Of a stretch of DNA of 26,797 nucleotides, positions 646-25,046 are shown piece by piece. Location of the stretch: positions 1 through 26,797 of the IMG/VR virus record IMGVR_UViG_3300011114_000353. One strand, written 5' to 3'. A program made the translations under genes and the position numbers. How positions within the stretch are numbered: the stretch's first letter is position 1; each line of letters starts with the position of its first letter. Source of the stretch: a virus. Under the pieces are notes generated by a model that was not told the origin of the DNA, searched no databases, and was given only the letters and a program-made list of their open reading frames with translations.

Positions 646-981
646 ATGACCGTAACCGTAAAAGTTCTTGTCCCCGCCAAGACCGCAGAGGCCAGCCAAA
701 CAACGCAATATACAGCCACCAACGTCACCACAATCATTGACAAGTTCACGGCGACCAACTACAGCGCAACGGCTGCGACCTTGAGTGTGAATCTGGTCAC
801 TGCTGCTGACACGGCTGGCAATCAGAACTTGATTACCAAGACCAAGACACTTGCCGCCAGCGAGGTATATACTTTTCCTGAGATTGTCGGCCAGGTGCTG
901 ATGGCAAGCGGGTTTATCTCCACCATCGCAGGCACCGCAACGGCGATCAACATTCGCGCTTCAGGGCGGGAGGTTAGCTAG
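646..981 (+). CDS. Small beta-rich virion-associated protein, function unknown
   Basis: 111 aa; a good Shine-Dalgarno (AGGAG) precedes ATG 646. The sequence is Thr/Ala-rich and alternates polar and hydrophobic residues, as beta-sandwich virion proteins do. There is no signal peptide, membrane segment or catalytic motif. It sits between the fibre-like gene and the SET-cupin gene, and its TAG overlaps the GTG start of the next gene by one base, so the two are probably translationally coupled. I recognise the general type from other phage virion modules (often 'hypothetical protein' after a fibre gene) but cannot assign a named family. A structural role is inferred from context only. Confidence 0.6.
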   Translation: MTVTVKVLVPAKTAEASQTTQYTATNVTTIIDKFTATNYSATAATLSVNLVTAADTAGNQNLITKTKTLAASEVYTFPEIVGQVLMASGFISTIAGTATAINIRASGREVS

Positions 982-1829
982 TGGATTTGAATTCTACAAC
1001 TAGTGCCGCAGACCATAGGGATTTCAACTTGTTTTTAGTTGAGGCAAATCTTTTGCCTGAAACTGTCCGGCAAATATCGGAGTTCACCGCCGATGTTTTA
1101 TTTTTGGCTGACGCGCCTGTAAACGTGGCCGCGTCTGTTATTGAAGGCAAAGGGTTGTTCCTGACTGAGCCTAAACGTAAGGGCGAACTGATATGCCCCG
1201 CCCGAGTATCCGGTCGTCGGACGCAAGCTGGCAGGTATACAAACCATTCCGCCACGCCTAACGCAACCATGATCCTGCTCAACAACGGCGATCTGAATCT
1301 GGTCGCGGTTGCAGATATTAACGCCGACCAAGAAATCACAATTGACTACCGGCGCTCGTTGGCGTTATCCGATTTGACGTTTAACGACGGTCATTTGGAC
1401 ATGCGGAACAAGGTCAATCAGCTAGAACAAATGGTCGAGCAGTTACCGCAAGTTGACTGCCCTGTTCGGAACATCTTTGCGCCAAACATCTACGCTCGGG
1501 AAATGACCATTCCAACAGGCGTTGTTTTGACCGGCGCGGTGCATAAGACGTGTCATTTGAGCATATTGTCTAAGGGGCAAGTCAGGGTCGTGAGCGACGA
1601 AGGCGTTATTGAATTAACTGCGCCAGCTACATTGATTTCACAACCTGGGGCCAAACGGGCTATTTTTGCCCTTTCAGAAGCGGTTTGGACTACGATCCAC
1701 GCTACAACCGAAACTGACTTGGACAAACTGGTAACAGAACTTACCGAATCAACCGCTGCGGAATTATTGGGTGGCGTTAAAAATAAGCAACTATTGACGG
1801 TTGCTGCAAGTAATCACTTGGAAGGATAA
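981..1829 (+). CDS. SET-domain / cupin fusion protein
   Basis: 282 aa from GTG 981, which shares a base with the preceding TAG. Residues about 47-125 hold the core SET lysine-methyltransferase signatures in order: GKGLF (56-60), RYTNHS..PN (85-94) and EITIDY (118-123). These form the S-adenosylmethionine pocket and the pseudoknot of SET enzymes. The domain is compact, with no pre-SET cysteines and no post-SET zinc site. Residues about 164-255 form a cupin-like beta barrel of a type common in phages (AREMTIP, TGAVHK, SKGQ, PGAKRA, VWTTIH); H188, H192 and H240 could bind metal. SET proteins modify lysine in protein targets; the target here is unknown. The gene lies among virion genes, so host or virion proteins are both possible substrates. 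Domain calls are from motifs; activity is untested. Confidence 0.75.
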   Translation: MDLNSTTSAADHRDFNLFLVEANLLPETVRQISEFTADVLFLADAPVNVAASVIEGKGLFLTEPKRKGELICPARVSGRRTQAGRYTNHSATPNATMILLNNGDLNLVAVADINADQEITIDYRRSLALSDLTFNDGHLDMRNKVNQLEQMVEQLPQVDCPVRNIFAPNIYAREMTIPTGVVLTGAVHKTCHLSILSKGQVRVVSDEGVIELTAPATLISQPGAKRAIFALSEAVWTTIHATTETDLDKLVTELTESTAAELLGGVKNKQLLTVAASNHLEG

Positions 1830-1832
1830 ATC

Positions 1833-2633
1833 ATGGCTTTCGGTATATCAGCAACAGCACTTTTTCTCGGCGGAACCGCGTTAGTTGGGGGATACCTTGC
1901 GTCTGAAGGCGCGTCTGACGCAGCCGACACCGCAGCGCAAGCATCGGGGCAAGCATCTGCCGCGTCCATTGCAGAGCAGCGCCGACAGTATGACATTAAC
2001 CGCGCTGATTACTACCCGTACATTACGTCCGGGCAAAGCGCGGTCAACCAGCTTGCCGCCGGTTTAGCGCCAGGTGGACGGTTTTCAACCCCCACACCGT
2101 TTGATTTCCGATACGACCAAAACACTGACCCCGGTTACGGATTTAGATTTGACCAAGGAATGCGCGGCGTAAACGCTTCAATGGCTGCTAAAGGTATGGG
2201 CCTATCCGGTGCAGGTATCAAGGGCGCAACTGAGTTTGGTCAAGGCATGGGTAGCCAAGAATACAACAACGCTTTCAACCGCTACGTGACCGGTTTCAAC
2301 GCCAATACGGGCGAGCGTAACCAGCTCTACAACCGATATGCGGGCGTAGCGGGAACAGGCCAACAGGCGGTTGGAGGCGTTACAGCACAAGGCGCAAACA
2401 TGGCGGGTAACATCGGCAACGCCTACATGACCAACGCAGCTAACACCGGCAACGCAGCGATGGCAGCGGCGGGGCAGCGTCAGTCGGCTTTTGGTGGCGC
2501 GGCTAACGCGTTAGGCCGGATGTATGGAAACAAAGGGTTCTCAAATCCGTTTGGCGGCAACGCAGACTACAATGACTATAACGCCACGCCGTATCAAAAC
2601 GATCCGATATTCGCAATGAGCAGGGAGGGGTAA
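1833..2633 (+). CDS. DNA transfer / ejection protein (p32-like)
   Basis: 266 aa; ATG 1833 lies three bases after the preceding stop. The N-terminus (about residues 3-25) is glycine/alanine-rich and hydrophobic, enough for membrane insertion. Next comes an Ala/Ser/Gln helix ending RRQYDINRADYYPYITSGQSAVNQLAAGL, then a DPGYGFRFDQGM segment and QEYNNAFNRYVTGF. This order is the recognisable pattern of the phage 'DNA transfer protein p32' group, virion proteins that leave the capsid with the DNA and help it across the cell envelope. It is the first of three consecutive genes of this kind, as in P22-like podoviruses where several ejection proteins are encoded together. The C-terminal 80 residues are Gly/Asn/Ala-rich and low in complexity. 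Confidence 0.75.
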   Translation: MAFGISATALFLGGTALVGGYLASEGASDAADTAAQASGQASAASIAEQRRQYDINRADYYPYITSGQSAVNQLAAGLAPGGRFSTPTPFDFRYDQNTDPGYGFRFDQGMRGVNASMAAKGMGLSGAGIKGATEFGQGMGSQEYNNAFNRYVTGFNANTGERNQLYNRYAGVAGTGQQAVGGVTAQGANMAGNIGNAYMTNAANTGNAAMAAAGQRQSAFGGAANALGRMYGNKGFSNPFGGNADYNDYNATPYQNDPIFAMSREG

Positions 2634-2635
2634 TC

Positions 2636-4501
2636 ATGGCTGAACTTAACTTTGGACTACTGACCCCGCCTGGCTCGCAGAGCATAGGCAACGCTTTTGC
2701 ACAGGGCATGGATCAAGCAGCGGTGGCTAGGGCGCAGGAGAACCAGAACGCGCTGGCTCAGTACACCTTGGGCAAAGCAAAGCGCGAGGATGAACAGCAG
2801 AACGAGTTATACGCCGCAGTGCGTCAACCCGGCTTTAAGTTAGATATTGGAACGGCTATGAGGTTCGGCGCGCCGGGTTTAGCCGCGTACAAAGCGCAAC
2901 AAGAGGGCGAAGTGCGCGGCGTAGACCTGCAAATTAAACGCAATACTCTAGCCGGACAACCCACTAAACAAATGCTTGACGAAAGTAATCTTCTCGACAA
3001 AGTTTTAGGCCAACTTCAGCCAAACGCTGCAAGAGCGCAAACGGTCGATGACGCGGTAAGGTATGTAGACGTATTGTATGACCACCCAATAGCGGGTGCA
3101 TACGCGTTAAAAATACAACCCAGAGAACAAGCAATTGCACAAGCCAAAGAAGAATTTGTTAAAAATCCCGATAAATGGCGCGCAGTAAACACTAACGTAA
3201 ACGGGTTGCAAATCGTGCAAGCCACCATGCCCAAACCGCAAGTTTTTGGCGGTGTCATAGGAAATGCAAATCCAATATCAGGGCCGGTAGGGGAGCGAAT
3301 ACCTAACACGCCGTACATACCGCAAAGTGCTACGGCTAAAGCCGAGAGCGACCTTAAAAATGCAATAGCAAACGGCGCGCCGCCTGCGGAAATTGCGGCA
3401 CTTACCGCTGCTCGTGATTCAGCGTTAATCGCCCAACAACAACGCGCGCAACAAATTGCTATATCGGGTGGGCAACTTAACGTAGCGCAAGGCAATTTAG
3501 CGTTACGAAATAGGGAATATGATCCGTATGGAATGTTTCCGCAAGTTATGGGTGGTGGTGGTGGTGGTGGTGGCGCGCGTCAATTAAACAACTTAGGCAC
3601 TACAACGCCGTTAGCAACTCCCGCACCCCAAGGGGCTGCGCCAACAGCCCCCGCGCCCCAAGCGGTTGCACCAGCAAGCATTGCGCCTATGACTGTGGCC
3701 GACGCGTTTAAAAATAATGTGACCGGGCCAGCATTTGTAGCGGTATTGCCGCCAACGGTTAGACCGTTAGTAGAATCTATATTGCGTTATGATCAACGCC
3801 CGCCCAGCCCTGCAACCAAACGCGGTCAGCAATTGCTGGAGTTAGTCAACCAAGCTGACCCAACGTATGATGCCAGTAAAGCGCAAACGCGTTACATAGC
3901 CAAACAAACCTTTGTAAAAGGGCCGGTGGCGGATGCAATTGCGTCAACAAATACGGCTATTGACCACATGGATACTTTAGCTACATACGGTGCTAATTTG
4001 AACAACGCTGATGTGCGTCTGGCTAACGCGGCAAAACAAGCAATAGCCGCGGCCTTTGGCGCAGACGCGCCTACAACCTTTGACGCTACACGGCGAATAG
4101 TAGGCCAAGAAGTAGTTAAAGCAGTTGTTGCAAACGGTGGTTCAATGCGGGAACGTGAGGAAGCGGCGGATGCGTTTAACAGAGCTAATTCGCCTGCACA
4201 GTTGGCCGGCGTGATTAAATCATACCAAGCACTATTAGGTGGACGCTTAAAAAGCACTCAACTACGGTATGAAAACGACACTGGGCTAAAAGATTTTCAA
4301 ACTAAACTTTTACCCGCAACTATCCGTGCAATTAGCGGTGCAACACCAGCCGCCGCTGGCGCGGGCGCAACTGTAAAACCGGCGGCAACAACCGCAAAAC
4401 CGGCGGCGGCAATTAAAATTAGTGGAAACGCTGAGTATGATAAGTTACCTAGCGGAACCTTATTCATAGACCCCGAAGGTACACAACGGAGAAAACCATA
4501 A
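2636..4501 (+). CDS. Internal virion / ejection protein
   Basis: 621 aa; ATG 2636 lies two bases after the previous stop, downstream of a GGGAGGGG stretch that can act as Shine-Dalgarno. The protein is mainly alpha-helical and Ala/Gln-rich. It has an N-terminal helical half, a Gly8 stretch and Pro/Ala linker (about residues 304-355), then a second half with the pattern RPLVESILRYDQRPPSP, QADPTYDASKAQTRY, NTAIDHMDTLATYGANLNN, which recurs in phage internal virion proteins. The C-terminus ends in KLPSGTLFIDPEGTQRRKP, a tail seen on several unrelated phage ejection proteins and possibly a packaging or assembly tag. The stop overlaps the next start (TAATG). No lytic transglycosylase motif was found. 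Confidence 0.65.
   Translation: MAELNFGLLTPPGSQSIGNAFAQGMDQAAVARAQENQNALAQYTLGKAKREDEQQNELYAAVRQPGFKLDIGTAMRFGAPGLAAYKAQQEGEVRGVDLQIKRNTLAGQPTKQMLDESNLLDKVLGQLQPNAARAQTVDDAVRYVDVLYDHPIAGAYALKIQPREQAIAQAKEEFVKNPDKWRAVNTNVNGLQIVQATMPKPQVFGGVIGNANPISGPVGERIPNTPYIPQSATAKAESDLKNAIANGAPPAEIAALTAARDSALIAQQQRAQQIAISGGQLNVAQGNLALRNREYDPYGMFPQVMGGGGGGGGARQLNNLGTTTPLATPAPQGAAPTAPAPQAVAPASIAPMTVADAFKNNVTGPAFVAVLPPTVRPLVESILRYDQRPPSPATKRGQQLLELVNQADPTYDASKAQTRYIAKQTFVKGPVADAIASTNTAIDHMDTLATYGANLNNADVRLANAAKQAIAAAFGADAPTTFDATRRIVGQEVVKAVVANGGSMREREEAADAFNRANSPAQLAGVIKSYQALLGGRLKSTQLRYENDTGLKDFQTKLLPATIRAISGATPAAAGAGATVKPAATTAKPAAAIKISGNAEYDKLPSGTLFIDPEGTQRRKP
3551..3574 (+). repeat. (GGT)7-GGC microsatellite coding for a polyglycine linker
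   Basis: Seven perfect GGT codons followed by GGC encode eight consecutive glycines inside the 621-aa ejection protein. They separate the N-terminal helical half from a Pro/Ala-rich linker. Gains or losses of a unit keep the reading frame, so linker length can vary by slippage without breaking the protein. Confidence 0.85.
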
Positions 4502-6849
4502 TGGGTTGGCAAGACGCGCCAGTAGCGGCAAACGAAAGTTGGCGCGCCGCGCCGTTAGTTGAACCACCCATGCGAGGTTCTGCCTTGGGTGGTTTAGTAG
4601 AAACCGGGATAGGCATGACTACGGGGCTTGCTGGCAGTGTGGCGGGCGGGCTGCGCGGTCTATATTCACTTGCTACTGGCGAAGGCAGCGAAACAGCGGC
4701 GGATAAGGTTAGGGCTACGCAAGAATTTTTAACATACCAGCCTCGCACAAAGCAAGGCCAAGCAATGACCGCAGTAACTTCAATGCCGGGCGAACTTGCG
4801 GCCCGTGCGGGTGGCGCCGTGGGTACCACGGTGGGCAATGTGGTTGGGCCACAAACAGGTGTGGCGTTCGGTGCTGCGGGTGAAATCTTGCCTGCAATAG
4901 GTCTTACTTTGTTGGGCGGCAGCGGAACGCTTGCTGGCGCTAGAAACCGCACAGCGCGGCAGCAACAGTTGCAAAACGAAGCCAACGTCACAGGAAGTTA
5001 TGTTGACGCCGGACGTATAGAAGCGGCGCAAACTGCTAACCGGCTTGGCGTTGCCGTAGACCCCGCCGCGTCTAACCCCACCCTGCCAAATAAGTTAATG
5101 ACGGGGTTAACCGGCGGTCGGGATGTAAACGCAGCATTGGCGCGGTCAAATGAGCCAAAATGGACTGCACTGTCTAAAGAAGGTATTGGACTTCCAATTA
5201 CAGCCGACCTGCGAAAAAAAGCCACCTTTGATGACGCAATTGCGGAAGTTGTTAGGGTGCCTTACGGGGATATTAGAAACTTGGGCGCGTTGACTGTTGA
5301 CGACGCAGTGGTGTCTCGGCTTACTGCGCTACCAAAAACGGTGCTAATTGGCAGAGGTGGAATGGAAGGTGTAACCGCGCCTTTGATAAATGACGCCGTA
5401 GCTAAAATTAACTCGGGGCTTACCGGCGCGTCGGCGCTGGAAAACATTCAATCGTTGCGGCAAGATGCACGACGCGCGCTTGCGCCGGAAAAGAAAGGCA
5501 ATGAAGTAACAAAAGAAGCGCGCGCGTCCGCCGATATAAGTTTAGGTATCGCCGCCGAACTTGAAGCAATTATTGAGTCCAACTTACCCACCACCGCACA
5601 AATAGCCGCCTACCGCACCGCGCGGACAAAAGCCGGGCAGATATACGATGTTGAACGCGCCACAGATAGGGCGACGGGGCAAGTAGACCCTGCGGTGTTT
5701 GCCCAGCTTGTACGCGACGGCAAGCCCGTATCAGGCATCGTAGCGGATATAGGCAATGTTGCGGCTAATTTCCCAAAGATTGCGGAAATAGGTGCTACTG
5801 GCGTGCCAGCTTGGCAACGGCGTTTAACGCGGTCAGGCCCCGCAGGAACTATTGGTCTTGGTATAGGTTCCATGTTTGGTATGCCGGTTACAGGCGCGGT
5901 TATTGGCGGCGGCATCGGGGAAGCCGCAAGCGCGTTGAGTGCTAGGCGCATGACGCGGCCAGGCTACCAAGCGGCGCGGGCGGTGCCACCGGATTACCGG
6001 CCACCAGTCAACGCGCTTGCACCGGCGGCTACGGCAAACTTACCGGCGATATACCAGCAGCAAGGTTCGCTTTCGCCGGGGTATTCGCCGGATTGGGTAA
6101 ACGTAAACCCGAATCGTGTTGTATCACCCCCCAGCGCACAGTATAGCGCGCCGCCAGGGTATAACCCGCGTCAGCTAAATGCACCCGTGTTAACCGAATT
6201 GCAAAACAACGCGCTAAACGTAGATAAAGCTAGAGAACGGCGATCAGGGACAGCGGCTTACGCTGATGAACTAGCCGCGCGCGCTGCTGCTGAAGCTGAA
6301 GCCGCGCGGCGGGTGCCCGCCGGCACGGGGCAGGTGTACGAACTTGACCCGGTTACCGGGCGGTTAAAGAGCGCGAGCGAAGGGCTAAGAGGCGCAACCC
6401 CCGACCTGATGGCTAGTACAGGTTCGCCCCTCGCGTCTGCCGTAGATAAGCTATCGACGGGTCGCGCGTTTGCCATGAGCGCAGAGGAGCGGATTGCGTG
6501 GAATACGCGTAAAGTTGACTTGGAATCTGCCGTGCCAGGATTTAGCAAACTCTCTGACAAGGCCGTAGCCGAGCGTATGATGGATCGCCAATGGGTATCC
6601 GACGCCGTAGCTAAAGCGCGAGAGAAAGCGCGGGGTTTTGACGAAATTGGTAAACGCTCAGAAAGTGCGGATAAAGTTCGCGCGGCCCGCATCGAACGCG
6701 ACCGTCTGATGGGCGTAGCCGAGTTACTGAATGAACAACTGAGCAATATGCCGTCAACCAAGACTAAGACGCAAGGCCCGAAAACAAGAGAAGCGCAACG
6801 TAACGCATTGCGCGGAAACGAAGACAACCAAAACAACTTAGCCAGGTAG
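4501..6849 (+). CDS. Large internal virion / ejection protein
   Basis: 782 aa; its ATG overlaps the preceding stop (TAATG). The N-terminus has two copies of a short W..APV/L element (WQDAPV, WRAAPL) seen at the start of many phage ejection proteins. It is followed by Gly/Ala-rich hydrophobic stretches (about 27-55 and 98-145) that could enter a membrane. The middle (about 190-430) is helical and the region near 445-480 is another glycine-rich hydrophobic hairpin. A Pro-rich spacer (about 495-560) leads to a charged helical C-terminus ending in a Lys/Arg/Asn-rich tail. No enzyme motif is evident. Size, position as third of three such genes and amphipathic segments suggest a protein ejected with DNA to build a trans-envelope channel. 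The role is inferred. Confidence 0.6.
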   Translation: MGWQDAPVAANESWRAAPLVEPPMRGSALGGLVETGIGMTTGLAGSVAGGLRGLYSLATGEGSETAADKVRATQEFLTYQPRTKQGQAMTAVTSMPGELAARAGGAVGTTVGNVVGPQTGVAFGAAGEILPAIGLTLLGGSGTLAGARNRTARQQQLQNEANVTGSYVDAGRIEAAQTANRLGVAVDPAASNPTLPNKLMTGLTGGRDVNAALARSNEPKWTALSKEGIGLPITADLRKKATFDDAIAEVVRVPYGDIRNLGALTVDDAVVSRLTALPKTVLIGRGGMEGVTAPLINDAVAKINSGLTGASALENIQSLRQDARRALAPEKKGNEVTKEARASADISLGIAAELEAIIESNLPTTAQIAAYRTARTKAGQIYDVERATDRATGQVDPAVFAQLVRDGKPVSGIVADIGNVAANFPKIAEIGATGVPAWQRRLTRSGPAGTIGLGIGSMFGMPVTGAVIGGGIGEAASALSARRMTRPGYQAARAVPPDYRPPVNALAPAATANLPAIYQQQGSLSPGYSPDWVNVNPNRVVSPPSAQYSAPPGYNPRQLNAPVLTELQNNALNVDKARERRSGTAAYADELAARAAAEAEAARRVPAGTGQVYELDPVTGRLKSASEGLRGATPDLMASTGSPLASAVDKLSTGRAFAMSAEERIAWNTRKVDLESAVPGFSKLSDKAVAERMMDRQWVSDAVAKAREKARGFDEIGKRSESADKVRAARIERDRLMGVAELLNEQLSNMPSTKTKTQGPKTREAQRNALRGNEDNQNNLAR

Positions 6850-10109: not shown

Positions 10110-11398
10110 TTCAATGCTTCCATAGCCAGTTGTGATAGGGATTTCTTGTCGTGCAGTGCGTCGTAAATCTTCTTGTCTACCGTACCCTCGGTCAGCAGAA
10201 CGTAAACCCACACGTCGTGCGTCTGGCCGCTGCGGTGCAGCCGCCCGATGGTCTGCTCGTAGAGTTCCAACGACCACGGCAAGGACAGGAACACCATGTG
10301 GCAACCGCCGAATTGCAGGTTAAGACCGTGGCCGGCAGACTTCGGGTGCGCCAGCAGCACCGCAATCTGCCCATTGTTCCATCGGTCAATGGCGTTCGGC
10401 TCGTCCAGCGTCACGGCGCGCGGGTAGCGGCGCTGTAGCTCTGCCAACTCGGCTTGATACTGATACGCAATGATCGTGTTGGCGTGCTGGTTCTCGGTCA
10501 GCAGGTCGTCCAGCACCTCAAACTTGTGGTCTGACATCCACTTCGTTTCCTTGCCCTCGGCGTAGACGAAGCCCGACGCCATCTGTTGCAGCTTGCTGGT
10601 GACTACGCCCGCGTTGGCCGCAACGGCCTGGGTGTCGGGGAACAGCACCATAAAGTTCTTTTTCATGTCCTTGTAGTCGGCCATGTCCATGCTGCAATTC
10701 ATCACAACCGTGTGCAGCGGCGGCAGCTTGTCTTTGTACTCGCCAGCGTCCAACACGAACGTGGCCGGTTTGATGCGCTCCATCACCTGCGCGAGCGCCC
10801 CGGCAGCGGGCGTCCACTCACCGAAGTCACGGTTGATGCAGTGAAAATACTGTTGCAGGAACGCGCCCTTGGCCCGGCCCAACAGCGACTGGTCGATCAC
10901 CTTGCACTGACCGAATACGTCCTCCAGCCCGTTGCTGGTGAAGCTGCCGGTCAACCCCCACCGAATCCGCATGTCGCCCAGCACCTTCAGCAACGCCTTG
11001 AACCGTTTGCCTGACGGGTTTTTAAGCCGTGTCAGCTCGTCAAACACCACACCGTCAAAGCGTAGCGGTTGCTCGGCCAGCCATTGCAGGTTGTCGTAGG
11101 TGGCGACCACCACCTGCACGTTGGCCTGTAGCGCCTTCACCCGCTGCGTCGGTGTGCCGATGACCACGGACAACGACAGCGTGGGTGCCCACAGCTTGGC
11201 CTCCACCGGCCAGACGTTGACGGCCACCCGCTTGGGTGCGACAACGAGAAACCGTTGCACCTCGCCCGCCGCCAGCATGTCGCGCATGGCGGTCAGCGTG
11301 ATGGCGGTCTTGCCCGCGCCCACAGGTGCTAAGATCATCGCCCTGTCCCGCTCGTACAGGAAGTCAGCGGCTAGGTTTTGGTAAGGTCTAAGTTTCAA
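10106..11398 (-). CDS. SNF2-family (SF2) DNA helicase/translocase
   Basis: 430 aa. Motifs in order: Q-like RPYQ (4-7), Walker A APVGAGKT (24-31), Ia VVAPKR (52-57), II VVFDELT (117-123, DEL in place of DEAH), III LTGSF (149-153), V SAGHGLNLQ (354-362) and VI QTIGRLHRSGQ (382-392). The RLHRSGQ form is typical of SNF2 enzymes, which use ATP to move along duplex DNA. The compact size without extra domains matches phage SNF2 proteins, often next to VRR-NUC and methyltransferase genes as here. Start is TTG 11398, with AGAGG about 7 bases upstream; it overlaps the methyltransferase stop by 11 bases. Probable role in phage replication, recombination or fork processing. Confidence 0.85.
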   Translation of the reverse strand: MKLRPYQNLAADFLYERDRAMILAPVGAGKTAITLTAMRDMLAAGEVQRFLVVAPKRVAVNVWPVEAKLWAPTLSLSVVIGTPTQRVKALQANVQVVVATYDNLQWLAEQPLRFDGVVFDELTRLKNPSGKRFKALLKVLGDMRIRWGLTGSFTSNGLEDVFGQCKVIDQSLLGRAKGAFLQQYFHCINRDFGEWTPAAGALAQVMERIKPATFVLDAGEYKDKLPPLHTVVMNCSMDMADYKDMKKNFMVLFPDTQAVAANAGVVTSKLQQMASGFVYAEGKETKWMSDHKFEVLDDLLTENQHANTIIAYQYQAELAELQRRYPRAVTLDEPNAIDRWNNGQIAVLLAHPKSAGHGLNLQFGGCHMVFLSLPWSLELYEQTIGRLHRSGQTHDVWVYVLLTEGTVDKKIYDALHDKKSLSQLAMEALK

Positions 11399-12512
11399 GG
11401 TACGCCTCTATGAAGACTTGCGCGACTTGCGGGACGATGGCGTTGCCGTAGGCGCGCAGGCGTCCCACGCGGGCGGTAGCCCCATGAGCCAGCGGGAATG
11501 TGCCGGGTTCAACTGGCCGGGCTTTTCCGTCGCGGCAGGGGAGCCAATCGCAGTTAGACCAGAAACCGCATTGGCTAACGTGTCCGTTGGGTTGCCTTTG
11601 CGTTCCTGCCGCCCCGCCCCCGATGGGCCTTTGTAATCTCTCGTCGTCGTCGTCGGCCAACTCGCCAACAGCGCAAAGTCGTTCAAATCCTTGCTGTAGG
11701 GTTTGTTGTGTGGGTTGAGCGCCTTCTCGTCCCATCCGTTCTTGTTGTCCCGTGTTTGCGGTGTCGGCCAACTGGTCAACGTCACCACCTCGCGCAGATT
11801 CCCCGACACCGTGCGCCCCGGCCTGCCCGGATGGTTCAACCGTTTTTCGTAATCCATCGGCGGCAAGGTGTCCATTGTTTGCGGCGTCGGCCAACTCGCC
11901 AATGTCGGATCTGCGTTGGTCAGCAACGCTATCGTTTGCGTTTGCAAGTGTGTTGCTCGGTGCATTGGCCGACCCGTCGTGCGGGGTGTGCTGAACACTC
12001 CGTCCAACGCTTTGGGTGTCTGCCACAAACCAAAGTCTTTGTCTGATGTGCGGCGCCCCGACGCCGCCAGCCGGTATACCAACCGCCCCGCAGGCGTAAC
12101 CTTCTCCCTCCAAGTTAGCTTGAACAAGGTCAAGCCATCCGTGGTTAATCGCGCTTTCAACTTGCTCACCAAAGATAACGTCAGGTCGGCACTCGCGGAT
12201 GAGATTGAACCAGGTAGGCCAGAGGTGTCGATCATCAGCGGTGCCTTTTTGGGTGCCTGCGGCGCTGAAGGGCTGGCACGGGCAACTGCCCGTCCAAACA
12301 GGTCTGTCCTCGGGCCATCCGGCGAGGCGCAAGGCGTGACTCCAGCCGCCAAGTCCGGCAAAGAAATGGCACTGAATAAATCCGGTAAGGTCACTGGCTC
12401 TAACATCCTTGATGCTCCTTGTGTCAACTTCACCTTGGGGCAAATGCCCCGCGTCTATCAGATTGCGTAGCCACTGCGCGGCATACGGGTCAAACTCGTT
12501 GTAGTAGTTCAT
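11388..12512 (-). CDS. DNA cytosine-C5 methyltransferase (Dcm-like)
   Basis: 374 aa from ATG 12512 (GTG 12521 would add three residues). A phage-type N-terminal region ([18 protein letters not shown]) precedes the catalytic motifs: I FAGLGGW (51-57), [11 protein letters not shown] with nucleophile C79, VI GEQVES (115-120, EQV instead of the usual ENV) and VIII RQRLWF (157-162). Motif IX/X follows near the C-terminus ([20 protein letters not shown]). It transfers a methyl group from S-adenosylmethionine to C5 of cytosine, probably protecting phage DNA from restriction. The target-recognition region between VIII and IX is low in complexity and carries several LAD-starting repeats. Almost the whole gene also encodes another frame (see the nested CDS). 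No partner endonuclease is seen, so it is an orphan enzyme here. Confidence 0.85.
11408..12406 (-). CDS. Nested gene inside the methyltransferase: W-P-T-P-Q-T repeat protein
   Basis: 332 aa in a different frame of the same strand, entirely within the methyltransferase gene. ATG 12406 has a perfect AAGGAG eight bases upstream. The N-terminus ([40 protein letters not shown]) leads to a helical region (about 75-100) and [19 protein letters not shown]. Then come further W-P-T-P-type repeats at W172, W213 and W250, and a C-terminus [19 protein letters not shown]...[10 protein letters not shown] recall this arrangement from many phage and bacterial 'hypothetical' proteins, so the frame looks like a true protein rather than chance. 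TAG 11408 is nine bases upstream of the helicase start codon. Function unknown; it might be a methyltransferase partner. Overlap and SD are seen directly; family recognition is from memory. Confidence 0.7.
12415..12420 (-). promoter_or_regulatory. Shine-Dalgarno of the nested gene
   Basis: On the minus strand AAGGAG is followed by 8 bases and ATG (12404-12406). It lies inside the methyltransferase coding sequence. It is as good as or better than most ribosome sites in this operon, which decides the nested start over the GTG at 12433. Confidence 0.7.
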
Positions 12513-12765
12513 CCACCTCACCTTTCGATCTAATCACAATGTAATTCATCCCCATGCGGCGCATCTCGGCAGCGAACACCTTCTGCCACGGTGACAAGCG
12601 CCCCTTTACAGTCTTGAGTTCCACAAACCACACCACGCCCCCTGGCAGCAGCACGATGCGGTCGGCCACACCAACACGCCCCGGTGACACCCACTTGTAG
12701 GCCACGCCACCATGCTCGATGGTGCGGCGCACAAGGTAGCGTTCAATGTCACGTTCTAGTATCAT
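12490..12765 (-). CDS. VRR-NUC domain nuclease
   Basis: 91 aa, nearly all one domain of the PD-(D/E)XK fold. The signatures are VSPGRVGVADRIVLLPGG (D35), VWFVELKT (E49, K51) and LSPWQ (Q61), which together build the metal site of VRR-NUC enzymes. The N-terminal E4 and E8 helix matches the family. Stand-alone VRR-NUC proteins are common in phages and resemble Holliday-junction or flap nucleases. It is the promoter-proximal gene of the leftward operon and overlaps the methyltransferase start by 23 bases. No clear Shine-Dalgarno precedes ATG 12765, so its mRNA may have a weak or short leader. Confidence 0.85.
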   Translation of the reverse strand: MILERDIERYLVRRTIEHGGVAYKWVSPGRVGVADRIVLLPGGVVWFVELKTVKGRLSPWQKVFAAEMRRMGMNYIVIRSKGEVDELLQRV

Positions 12766-23550: not shown

Positions 23551-25046
23551 ACGAAGAAAAACTGATGGTCGAATTGTGGTCGCCCGCGCTTGCGGACGAT
23601 CCCGAAGCGTTTGTCCTTTTTGCGTTTCCGTGGGGCCAGAAGAATACCCCGCTGCATAAATTCAAAGGCCCGCGCAAATGGCAGCGCGAGGTGCTGCGCG
23701 ACATCAAGCAACATATAGATAACAACAAAGGCAAGGTGCAGATGGACACCCTGCGAGAGGCGGTGTCATCTGGCCGGGGTATTGGCAAGTCAGCCTTAGT
23801 GTCTTGGTTGGTGCTGTGGATGCTGACCACCCGCATTGGCGGCAGCGTCATCATTAGCGCCAACTCGGAGAACCAGTTGCGCTCGGTAACCTGGGCCGAG
23901 CTGACCAAGTGGTCGGCTATGTCTATCAACAACCACTGGTTTGAGATCAGCGCAACTAAGCTGGTGCCGGCGCAGTGGCTGTGCGAGCTGGTCGAGCGGG
24001 ACTTGAAAAAAGGCACACGTTATTGGGCGGCAGAGGGCAAGCTGTGGTCGGCGGAGAACCCCGACAGCTACGCCGGCGTGCATAACCAAGACGGCATGAT
24101 GCTGATATTTGACGAGTCATCAGGCATCCCCAACCCCATATGGGAGGTCGGCGCCGGGTTCTTTACTGAGAACACGCCGGACAGGTACTGGTTTGCCTTT
24201 AGCAACCCGCGCCGTAACGAGGGGTACTTTTTCGAGTGTTTTCACGCCAAACGGGCGTTTTGGAACACCCGCAGCGTGGACGCAAGGACGGTGGAGGACA
24301 CCGACAAGCAGGTTTACGAGCAGATCATTGCCGAATATGGCGAAGATAGCCCGCAGGCCAAGGTCGAGGTGTATGGTGAGTTCCCCGACGCGGGCGAGGA
24401 TCAGTTCATCAAGCCCATGCTGGTCGAGGACGCCATGCAGCGGGCGCGATGGAAGGACACAACTGCGCCTATAGTATTAGGTATCGACCCGGCCAGAGGC
24501 GGCGCTGACTCTACGGTGCTGGTGGTGCGCCAGGGGCGGGACATTGTGGCCATCAAACGCTACTCGGGCGAGGACACCATGACCATAGTCGGGCGGGTGA
24601 TCGACGCAATCGAGGAATATAAGCCTATTTTGTCAGTTATTGACGAAGGCGGGCTGGGGTACGGCATACTTGACAGGCTCACAGAGCAGCGTTATAAGGT
24701 GCGAGGGGTAAACTTTGGCTGGAAAGCCAAAAACTCTATTATGTGGGGCAACAAGCGGGCTGAAATGTGGGGAACCATGAAGGACTGGCTGAAAACAGCG
24801 TCCGTTCCAGTTGATCGGCAGCTAAAAGCTGATCTGGTCGGCCCCATGAAGAAGCCTAACAGCAGTGGTACGATTTTCCTTGAAGGAAAGAAGGAAATGC
24901 GTAGTAGAGGGTTAGCTTCACCCGACGCCGCCGACGCGCTGGCGGTTACTTTTGCCTTCCCCGTCGCGCACCGCGAGTATCGGGAGCCGACCCGGCGCAC
25001 AGCGTCATCTCACGCCAGCGTAACCAACTCTTGGATGGGTAGCTAA
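23523..25046 (+). CDS. Terminase large subunit
   Basis: 507 aa. The ATPase domain has Walker A SGRGIGKS (83-90), Walker B MLIFDES (193-199) and a coupling-type AFSNPRR (225-231). The nuclease domain has LGIDPARGGADS (D322), SVIDEGG (D374) and SPDAADALAV (D468, D471), the acidic metal-binding set of the RNase-H-like fold. Together with the small subunit it cuts concatemeric DNA and pumps it into the procapsid through the portal. Length is typical. Start ATG 23523 lies inside the HNH gene with only a weak AGG upstream, so coupling to HNH translation is likely; the next ATG (23565) would lose residues before the ATPase but not motifs. Confidence 0.92.
   Translation: MQKPIYSTIDEEKLMVELWSPALADDPEAFVLFAFPWGQKNTPLHKFKGPRKWQREVLRDIKQHIDNNKGKVQMDTLREAVSSGRGIGKSALVSWLVLWMLTTRIGGSVIISANSENQLRSVTWAELTKWSAMSINNHWFEISATKLVPAQWLCELVERDLKKGTRYWAAEGKLWSAENPDSYAGVHNQDGMMLIFDESSGIPNPIWEVGAGFFTENTPDRYWFAFSNPRRNEGYFFECFHAKRAFWNTRSVDARTVEDTDKQVYEQIIAEYGEDSPQAKVEVYGEFPDAGEDQFIKPMLVEDAMQRARWKDTTAPIVLGIDPARGGADSTVLVVRQGRDIVAIKRYSGEDTMTIVGRVIDAIEEYKPILSVIDEGGLGYGILDRLTEQRYKVRGVNFGWKAKNSIMWGNKRAEMWGTMKDWLKTASVPVDRQLKADLVGPMKKPNSSGTIFLEGKKEMRSRGLASPDAADALAVTFAFPVAHREYREPTRRTASSHASVTNSWMGS

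Follow-up and report, generated by a model that had tools for sequence, protein, structure and literature searches.

Given that SET-domain enzymes are best known from eukaryotes and have been studied mostly as chromatin modifiers, we asked what an intact-looking SET domain might be doing in a phage gene that also encodes a cupin and lies beside genes for DNA ejection. The window (the whole stretch of DNA analysed) is an IMG/VR virus record of 26,797 bases, in which the gene occupies positions 981..1829 and encodes 282 aa (this and all features below are on the (+) strand unless marked otherwise). Its GTG start codon shares one base with the stop codon of the ORF before it, and a Shine-Dalgarno-like GGGAGG (968..973) lies 7 nt before it. 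The gene has matches in both Pfam and PHROGs and a dN/dS of 0.06–0.08 over its whole length. Compared with the closest relatives, the ratio was 0.12–0.16 in the SET half and approximately 0.04 in the cupin half, and values this far below 1 point to purifying selection on both halves, and therefore to both being in use.

The SET half matched the Pfam SET profile (PF00856, E 1.1e-8) with 35.9 bits against a curated cut-off of 22.4, which was also passed by most relatives tested (two score 16.2 on their own). A second match, over residues 10–128, was to phrog_34170, a family of unknown function (E 1e-49). The initial annotation had described a minimal SET core with intact GKG, RYTNHS and ITIDY motifs, and these were recovered at residues 56–58 (1146..1154), 85–90 (1233..1250) and 119–123 (1335..1349), respectively, the first being the SAM-binding GxG motif and the last ending in the catalytic-type tyrosine. 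Across 90 distinct relatives, S52, G56, G58, R80, T81, G84, N88, H89, E118 and Y123 were invariant, R85 was kept in 87 and D122 in 85 (Asn in the other 5), although conservation from R80 to H89 is partly built in because the relatives were gathered by patterns that included RT..GR.N(H), which leaves GxG, E118 and Y123 unaffected. Loss of the NHS and DY residues, which had been named beforehand as a sign against the SET assignment, was thus not what the relatives displayed. In three proteins with the cupin first (cupin-SET; L150, L174 and L179), Trp replaces the Arg before the NH motif (GWLINHS, GWLMNHS), and the other catalytic residues are retained. The invariance of GxG, NH and the final Tyr counts in favor of a SET methyltransferase, and we consider the protein probably active as such.

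Predicted structures gave the same assignment. The AlphaFold model of the window protein had a mean pLDDT of 83 and exceeded 90 over most of each domain, with a flexible linker at residues 133–138 (1377..1394, pLDDT <50). Its pTM was 0.52, so the placing of the SET and cupin domains relative to one another is not settled in this model. The model of a cupin-SET relative (L082; pLDDT 92, pTM 0.87) agreed with that of the window protein on the SET fold. When aligned with VIA-align, the SET core (residues 42–124, 1104..1352), which is without most of the SET-I region, superposed on MLL1 with bound SAH (Z 10.5, 1.5 Å over 78 residues, 32% identity), on EZH2 (Z 10.6, and up to 11.0 in PRC2) and on vSET of chlorella virus PBCV-1 (Z 10.1, 1.9 Å over 77 residues, 31% identity). 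Z scores of 10–11 to all three place the predicted models in the SET (beta-clip) fold. A profile of 49 phage SET domains likewise matched MLL SET chains in the PDB (E 7e-9), the match falling in two stretches, one per SET half. Structure prediction, suggested at the outset as a check, therefore returned both a SET and a cupin, and on these models the two folds of the 282-aa protein are near certain. A chance motif match behind the SET call was also considered, and is excluded by the profile, structure and selection evidence.

SET-I is usual in characterised enzymes, where it varies in length and does not define the family. In the phage profile this region spans about 7 positions, compared with about 41 residues in MLL, and the window protein has almost none of the insert. 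The 83 window residues aligned to MLL1 cover 122 MLL1 residues, and the 82 model residues aligned to vSET cover 105 vSET residues, leaving 28 vSET residues versus 5 window residues unmatched; as modelled, the phage SET core is smaller than vSET and shorter than the characterised SET domains compared. The SET-N strand usually has a tyrosine, and the residue before DY is commonly Tyr or Phe in SET enzymes. The phage SET has no such tyrosine and carries I, V or L ahead of DY, so the lysine channel must be built differently. We infer that candidates for a rebuilt channel are the PAR...RTxAGR stretch and the conserved helical segment preceding the core (residues 10–41, 1008..1103), which aligns in both domain orders and for which the window model has helices at residues 3–21 and 26–34. 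SET-I normally supplies one side of the groove that holds the substrate. With so little of it left, the channel for the substrate has to be different, and catalytic activity cannot be taken for granted.

The missing SET-I also favors a different reading, namely that the domain is a non-catalytic SET-like beta-clip that binds a glycan, SAM or protein within a tail part, comparable to carbohydrate-binding SAF domains. The annotation of the cupin as a short tail fibre would fit this, as would a descent of SET from the carbohydrate-binding SAF superfamily, a proposal reported in a review (PMC3980110). A mere binder, however, would not be expected to keep GxG, NH and Tyr without variation in 90 sequences, and a purely binding role is accordingly an unlikely explanation of the domain. 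Carbohydrate-binding SAF beta-clip proteins were absent from the 50 best structure matches, a result that does not speak against them.

We assessed how widely, and in which arrangement, the two domains are associated. Searching IMG/VR with one strict SET pattern gave 479 stretches, 467 of them encoding relatives, and the best 80 of these 467 were fetched and scanned with a profile for each domain. All complete ORFs in these 80 were fusions of SET and cupin, which answers the call in the initial annotation for a database search for further fusions. Within this set, the cupin-SET order was common, the SET-cupin order was rare and corresponded to the window's clade, and SET alone was represented by two ORFs cut at contig ends. 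The cupin-first order was also found in Rhodoferax phage P26218 gp30, Pseudoalteromonas phage PH1 gp49, zth2-2, MW202557 and MW202744, and in six of eight loci on bacterial genome contigs (mainly Burkholderiales and MAGs). On a Paraburkholderia ferrariae contig (L117 5213-6657), cupin and SET are encoded by adjacent, abutting but separate ORFs, the SET protein carrying an extra C-terminal part; this is possibly a split or pre-fusion state. On a Comamonadaceae ALPHA2B contig (L116 5866-7507), the SET has no cupin in its ORF, and one small gene separates it from an ejection-like protein (a resemblance based on position and start, with no PHROGs match).

Trees of the two domains indicate that they were brought together more than once. 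In the SET tree, SET-cupin proteins formed one group with moderate support (76/90). In the cupin tree, certain cupin-SET proteins branch within the window-type lone cupins, so that on well-supported branches the cupin-SET label must have changed three times or more; some of these changes may be losses. Neither domain order can be derived from the other by loss alone, implying at least two separate joins. That the same pair was joined repeatedly, and in both orders, is the strongest evidence suggesting that SET and cupin work together.

What the cupin contributes was examined through its fold, putative metal site and relatives. The domain (residues 144–262, 1410..1766) was recognized by phrog_12032 ("short tail fiber"; residues 139–274, E 5.8e-54), by similarity of model residues 157–253 to cupins such as HP0902 (Z 11.1, VIA-align), and by Foldseek (E 8.5e-7, predicted model), in agreement with the initial description of a SET domain joined to a phage cupin. 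The window protein was unlisted for Pfam Cupin_2 up to E 1, and relatives scored 12–13 bits against the cut-off of 27.2 for that family. No solved relative of the phage cupin was found in the PDB by sequence, and Foldseek returned just ordinary cupins among its 50 best matches. Comparison with the four-ligand metal site of TM1459 indicated that the window protein keeps H188 and H192, while the third ligand is replaced by Ala and the fourth, placed by eye, by Arg; His240 is a further conserved histidine in the window-type cupin. Cupin-SET proteins mostly retain a different pair (H186 and H192), such that the histidines vary between clades, and the BPP-1 cupin has no His at the TM1459-ligand positions examined.

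Two roles had originally been offered for the cupin, a second chemistry or a virion anchor. The first is not supported, as the canonical four-ligand metal site is both incomplete and variable, although window-type cupins may bind some metal. The second stands in modified form: the cupin is more likely a structural tether than a conserved metal enzyme, and its presence in the virion is suggested by gene position. The "short tail fiber" name itself is an inherited annotation. This role lacks experimental validation for the cupin ORF 43 of phage phiAP1 (PMC8703784), and a literature search found no virion proteomics for the cupin or the SET-cupin protein.

The surrounding genes bear directly on where the protein might reside. 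Directly upstream is a 111-aa protein (646..981) common to many relatives with and without SET, preceded by a fibre-like ORF. A gene of the DNA-ejection family phrog_598 (1833..2633, E 1.3e-28), at the position of P22 gp7, begins 3 nt downstream of the SET-cupin gene, which is consequently located between fibre and DNA-ejection genes as first proposed. Two large ORFs follow (2636..4501 and 4501..6849) that correspond to P22 gp20 and gp16 by position only, with no Pfam or PHROGs family match. This gene order resembles that of P22, in which the tail needle gp26 and the ejection protein gp7 flank gp14. In 179 loci (near-duplicates included) the cupin gene is directly followed by a long ORF, and in 161 of them (~90%) this ORF encodes a relative of the window's ejection protein. 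The two genes usually abut or overlap, with a median spacing of 3 nt for SET-cupin, −13 nt for cupin-SET and 1 nt for cupin alone. Because the linkage holds with or without SET, the cupin belongs to the ejection/tail cluster and SET is an addition to it. Based on gene position, we put the odds of a virion or ejection-site location at slightly better than even.

Other features of the region were also apparent. From base 646 rightward, the window and its close relatives (L001–L004) share 80–98% DNA identity, and the fibre gene immediately upstream is a different one in each of them (162, 703, 627, 159 and 412 aa). Homology starts almost exactly at 646, which places a point of fibre exchange immediately ahead of the 111-aa gene. 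Elsewhere, the window encodes a DNA methyltransferase (11388-12521, (-) strand; phrog_363, E 3.5e-82), which is overlapped on the same strand by a second long frame (341 aa, 11408-12433) that is probably a by-product of base composition.

The explanation we prefer is that the gene product would be a SAM-dependent methyltransferase with a minimal SET fold, largely without SET-I, whose cupin would tether it structurally to the tail/ejection module of podophages resembling P22. The tethered SET would act during assembly, or as the ejection proteins exit the particle, and would methylate one or more lysines on a protein that is likewise held there. We assign this reading a probability of roughly 0.4 (0.42). 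The Comamonadaceae SET without a cupin in its ORF counts against the tether, as it indicates that the tether is not always fused. The near loss of SET-I, the low lysine content of the neighboring ejection protein (see below) and the negative outcome of the search for virion proteomics also weigh against this reading. Extended to the family as a whole, the proposal becomes one of a widespread phage group of particle-tethered methyltransferases, with SET-I dispensed with, the channel rebuilt around PAR...RTxAGR and the preceding helices, and a cupin holding the enzyme where it acts on virion or ejected proteins; we advance this broader version only tentatively.

The same adjacency to ejection genes could instead reflect an enzyme directed at the host, either entering the cell along with the ejection proteins or synthesized in the course of infection, which would methylate a host protein such as one of the nucleoid, the ribosome or the transcription machinery, with the cupin as a carrier or docking domain. 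There is precedent for SET proteins acting on a partner's DNA-associated proteins, as archaeal Go1-SET methylates MC1-alpha (review, PMC3980110). Yet many phages keep the cupin without SET at the same place, which better fits a part of the particle, and our data suggested no host target. We therefore regard host modification as rather unlikely, and a virion or co-ejected target as somewhat more likely than a host one.

The adjacent ejection protein was rejected as a lysine-rich target: the median lysine content of ejection proteins was 1.1% in SET-cupin phages (2.4% in cupin-only phages), and no SET-linked lysine was seen in the part of the window-clade alignment inspected. Alternatively, SET could methylate its own cupin partner, for instance at lysine 225, and thereby tune assembly. 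Fusion in both orders would keep enzyme and cupin together, and every SET-bearing relative counted has a lysine at the position of K225 (8/8 SET-cupin and 76/76 cupin-SET). The equivalent residue is also a lysine in 53 of 54 cupins without SET, however, showing that its conservation is independent of the enzyme, and self-modification seems improbable.

We also considered whether SET and GNAT genes substitute for one another at a single slot. The lone cupin has a GNAT gene ahead of it in BPP-1 and in an Acinetobacter phage, T7 gp13 and P22 gp14 fill a matching slot immediately ahead of the ejection proteins, and a GNAT has been linked to T7 gp13 in a published comparison (PMC6775973). Over 48 records, GNAT or gp13-like genes occurred in 5 of 26 with cupin alone versus 2 of 22 with SET (one further SET record had a weak, broken match), so a swap is neither general nor exclusive. 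In zth2-2 (L020 6094-7700), the cupin-SET gene is followed, with one gene between, by a GNAT gene (record 24465-24767), placing two kinds of modifying enzyme within one module.

The recurrence of an intact-looking SET across hundreds of phage contigs, almost always joined to the same cupin and beside ejection genes, suggests a role for protein methylation in virion assembly or entry. If the proposal is correct, phage assembly or DNA delivery would include a protein-methylation step. The family would additionally provide mechanistic studies with a very small natural SET core and allow the function of SET to be explored in a histone-free system, and its cultured members, Rhodoferax phage P26218 and Pseudoalteromonas phage PH1, make the reading testable. 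Our literature search, which covered few subscription journals, found no paper on phage SET proteins or SET-cupin fusions, and the word "phage" is absent from a 2014 review of bacterial SET proteins (PMC3980110). Some members already carry SET-related names in databases: MW202744 includes a "pbcV-1 histone H3-lys 27 methyltransferase structure", and A0A6J5PTS6 (49% identity over 256 columns) is named "SET domain containing protein".

Among known phage systems, the phrog_34170 proteins, a family without a name, share the SET of the window protein. P26218 gp30 and PH1 gp49, which judging from their domain order would belong to phrog_34170, share its cupin in reversed order, and most SETs of this type with the cupin first have a GCxGG insert before the ExTxDY motif. 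Phage cupins of phrog_12032 and phrog_24280 (e.g., BPP-1 Bbp23) belong to the same cupin family and occupy the same place before the ejection gene, but are cupins alone, with a fibre function by annotation. T7 gp13, P22 gp14 and BPP-1 Bbp24 (GNAT) are small proteins in a matching slot before ejection proteins, whereas their families (PF11090, PF11039 and PF00583) differ from SET, and we claim no common ancestry. Among characterised enzymes, MLL1 and EZH2 provide the best structural and profile matches to the phage SET, which differs in its reduced SET-I and in the absence of chromatin partners. The dimeric chlorella virus histone H3K27 methyltransferase vSET (PBCV-1 A612L) is likewise viral and very small; in contrast, the phage core is even smaller, has a cupin fused to it and is encoded within a virion gene cluster, and the vSET substrate, histone H3, is absent from bacteria.
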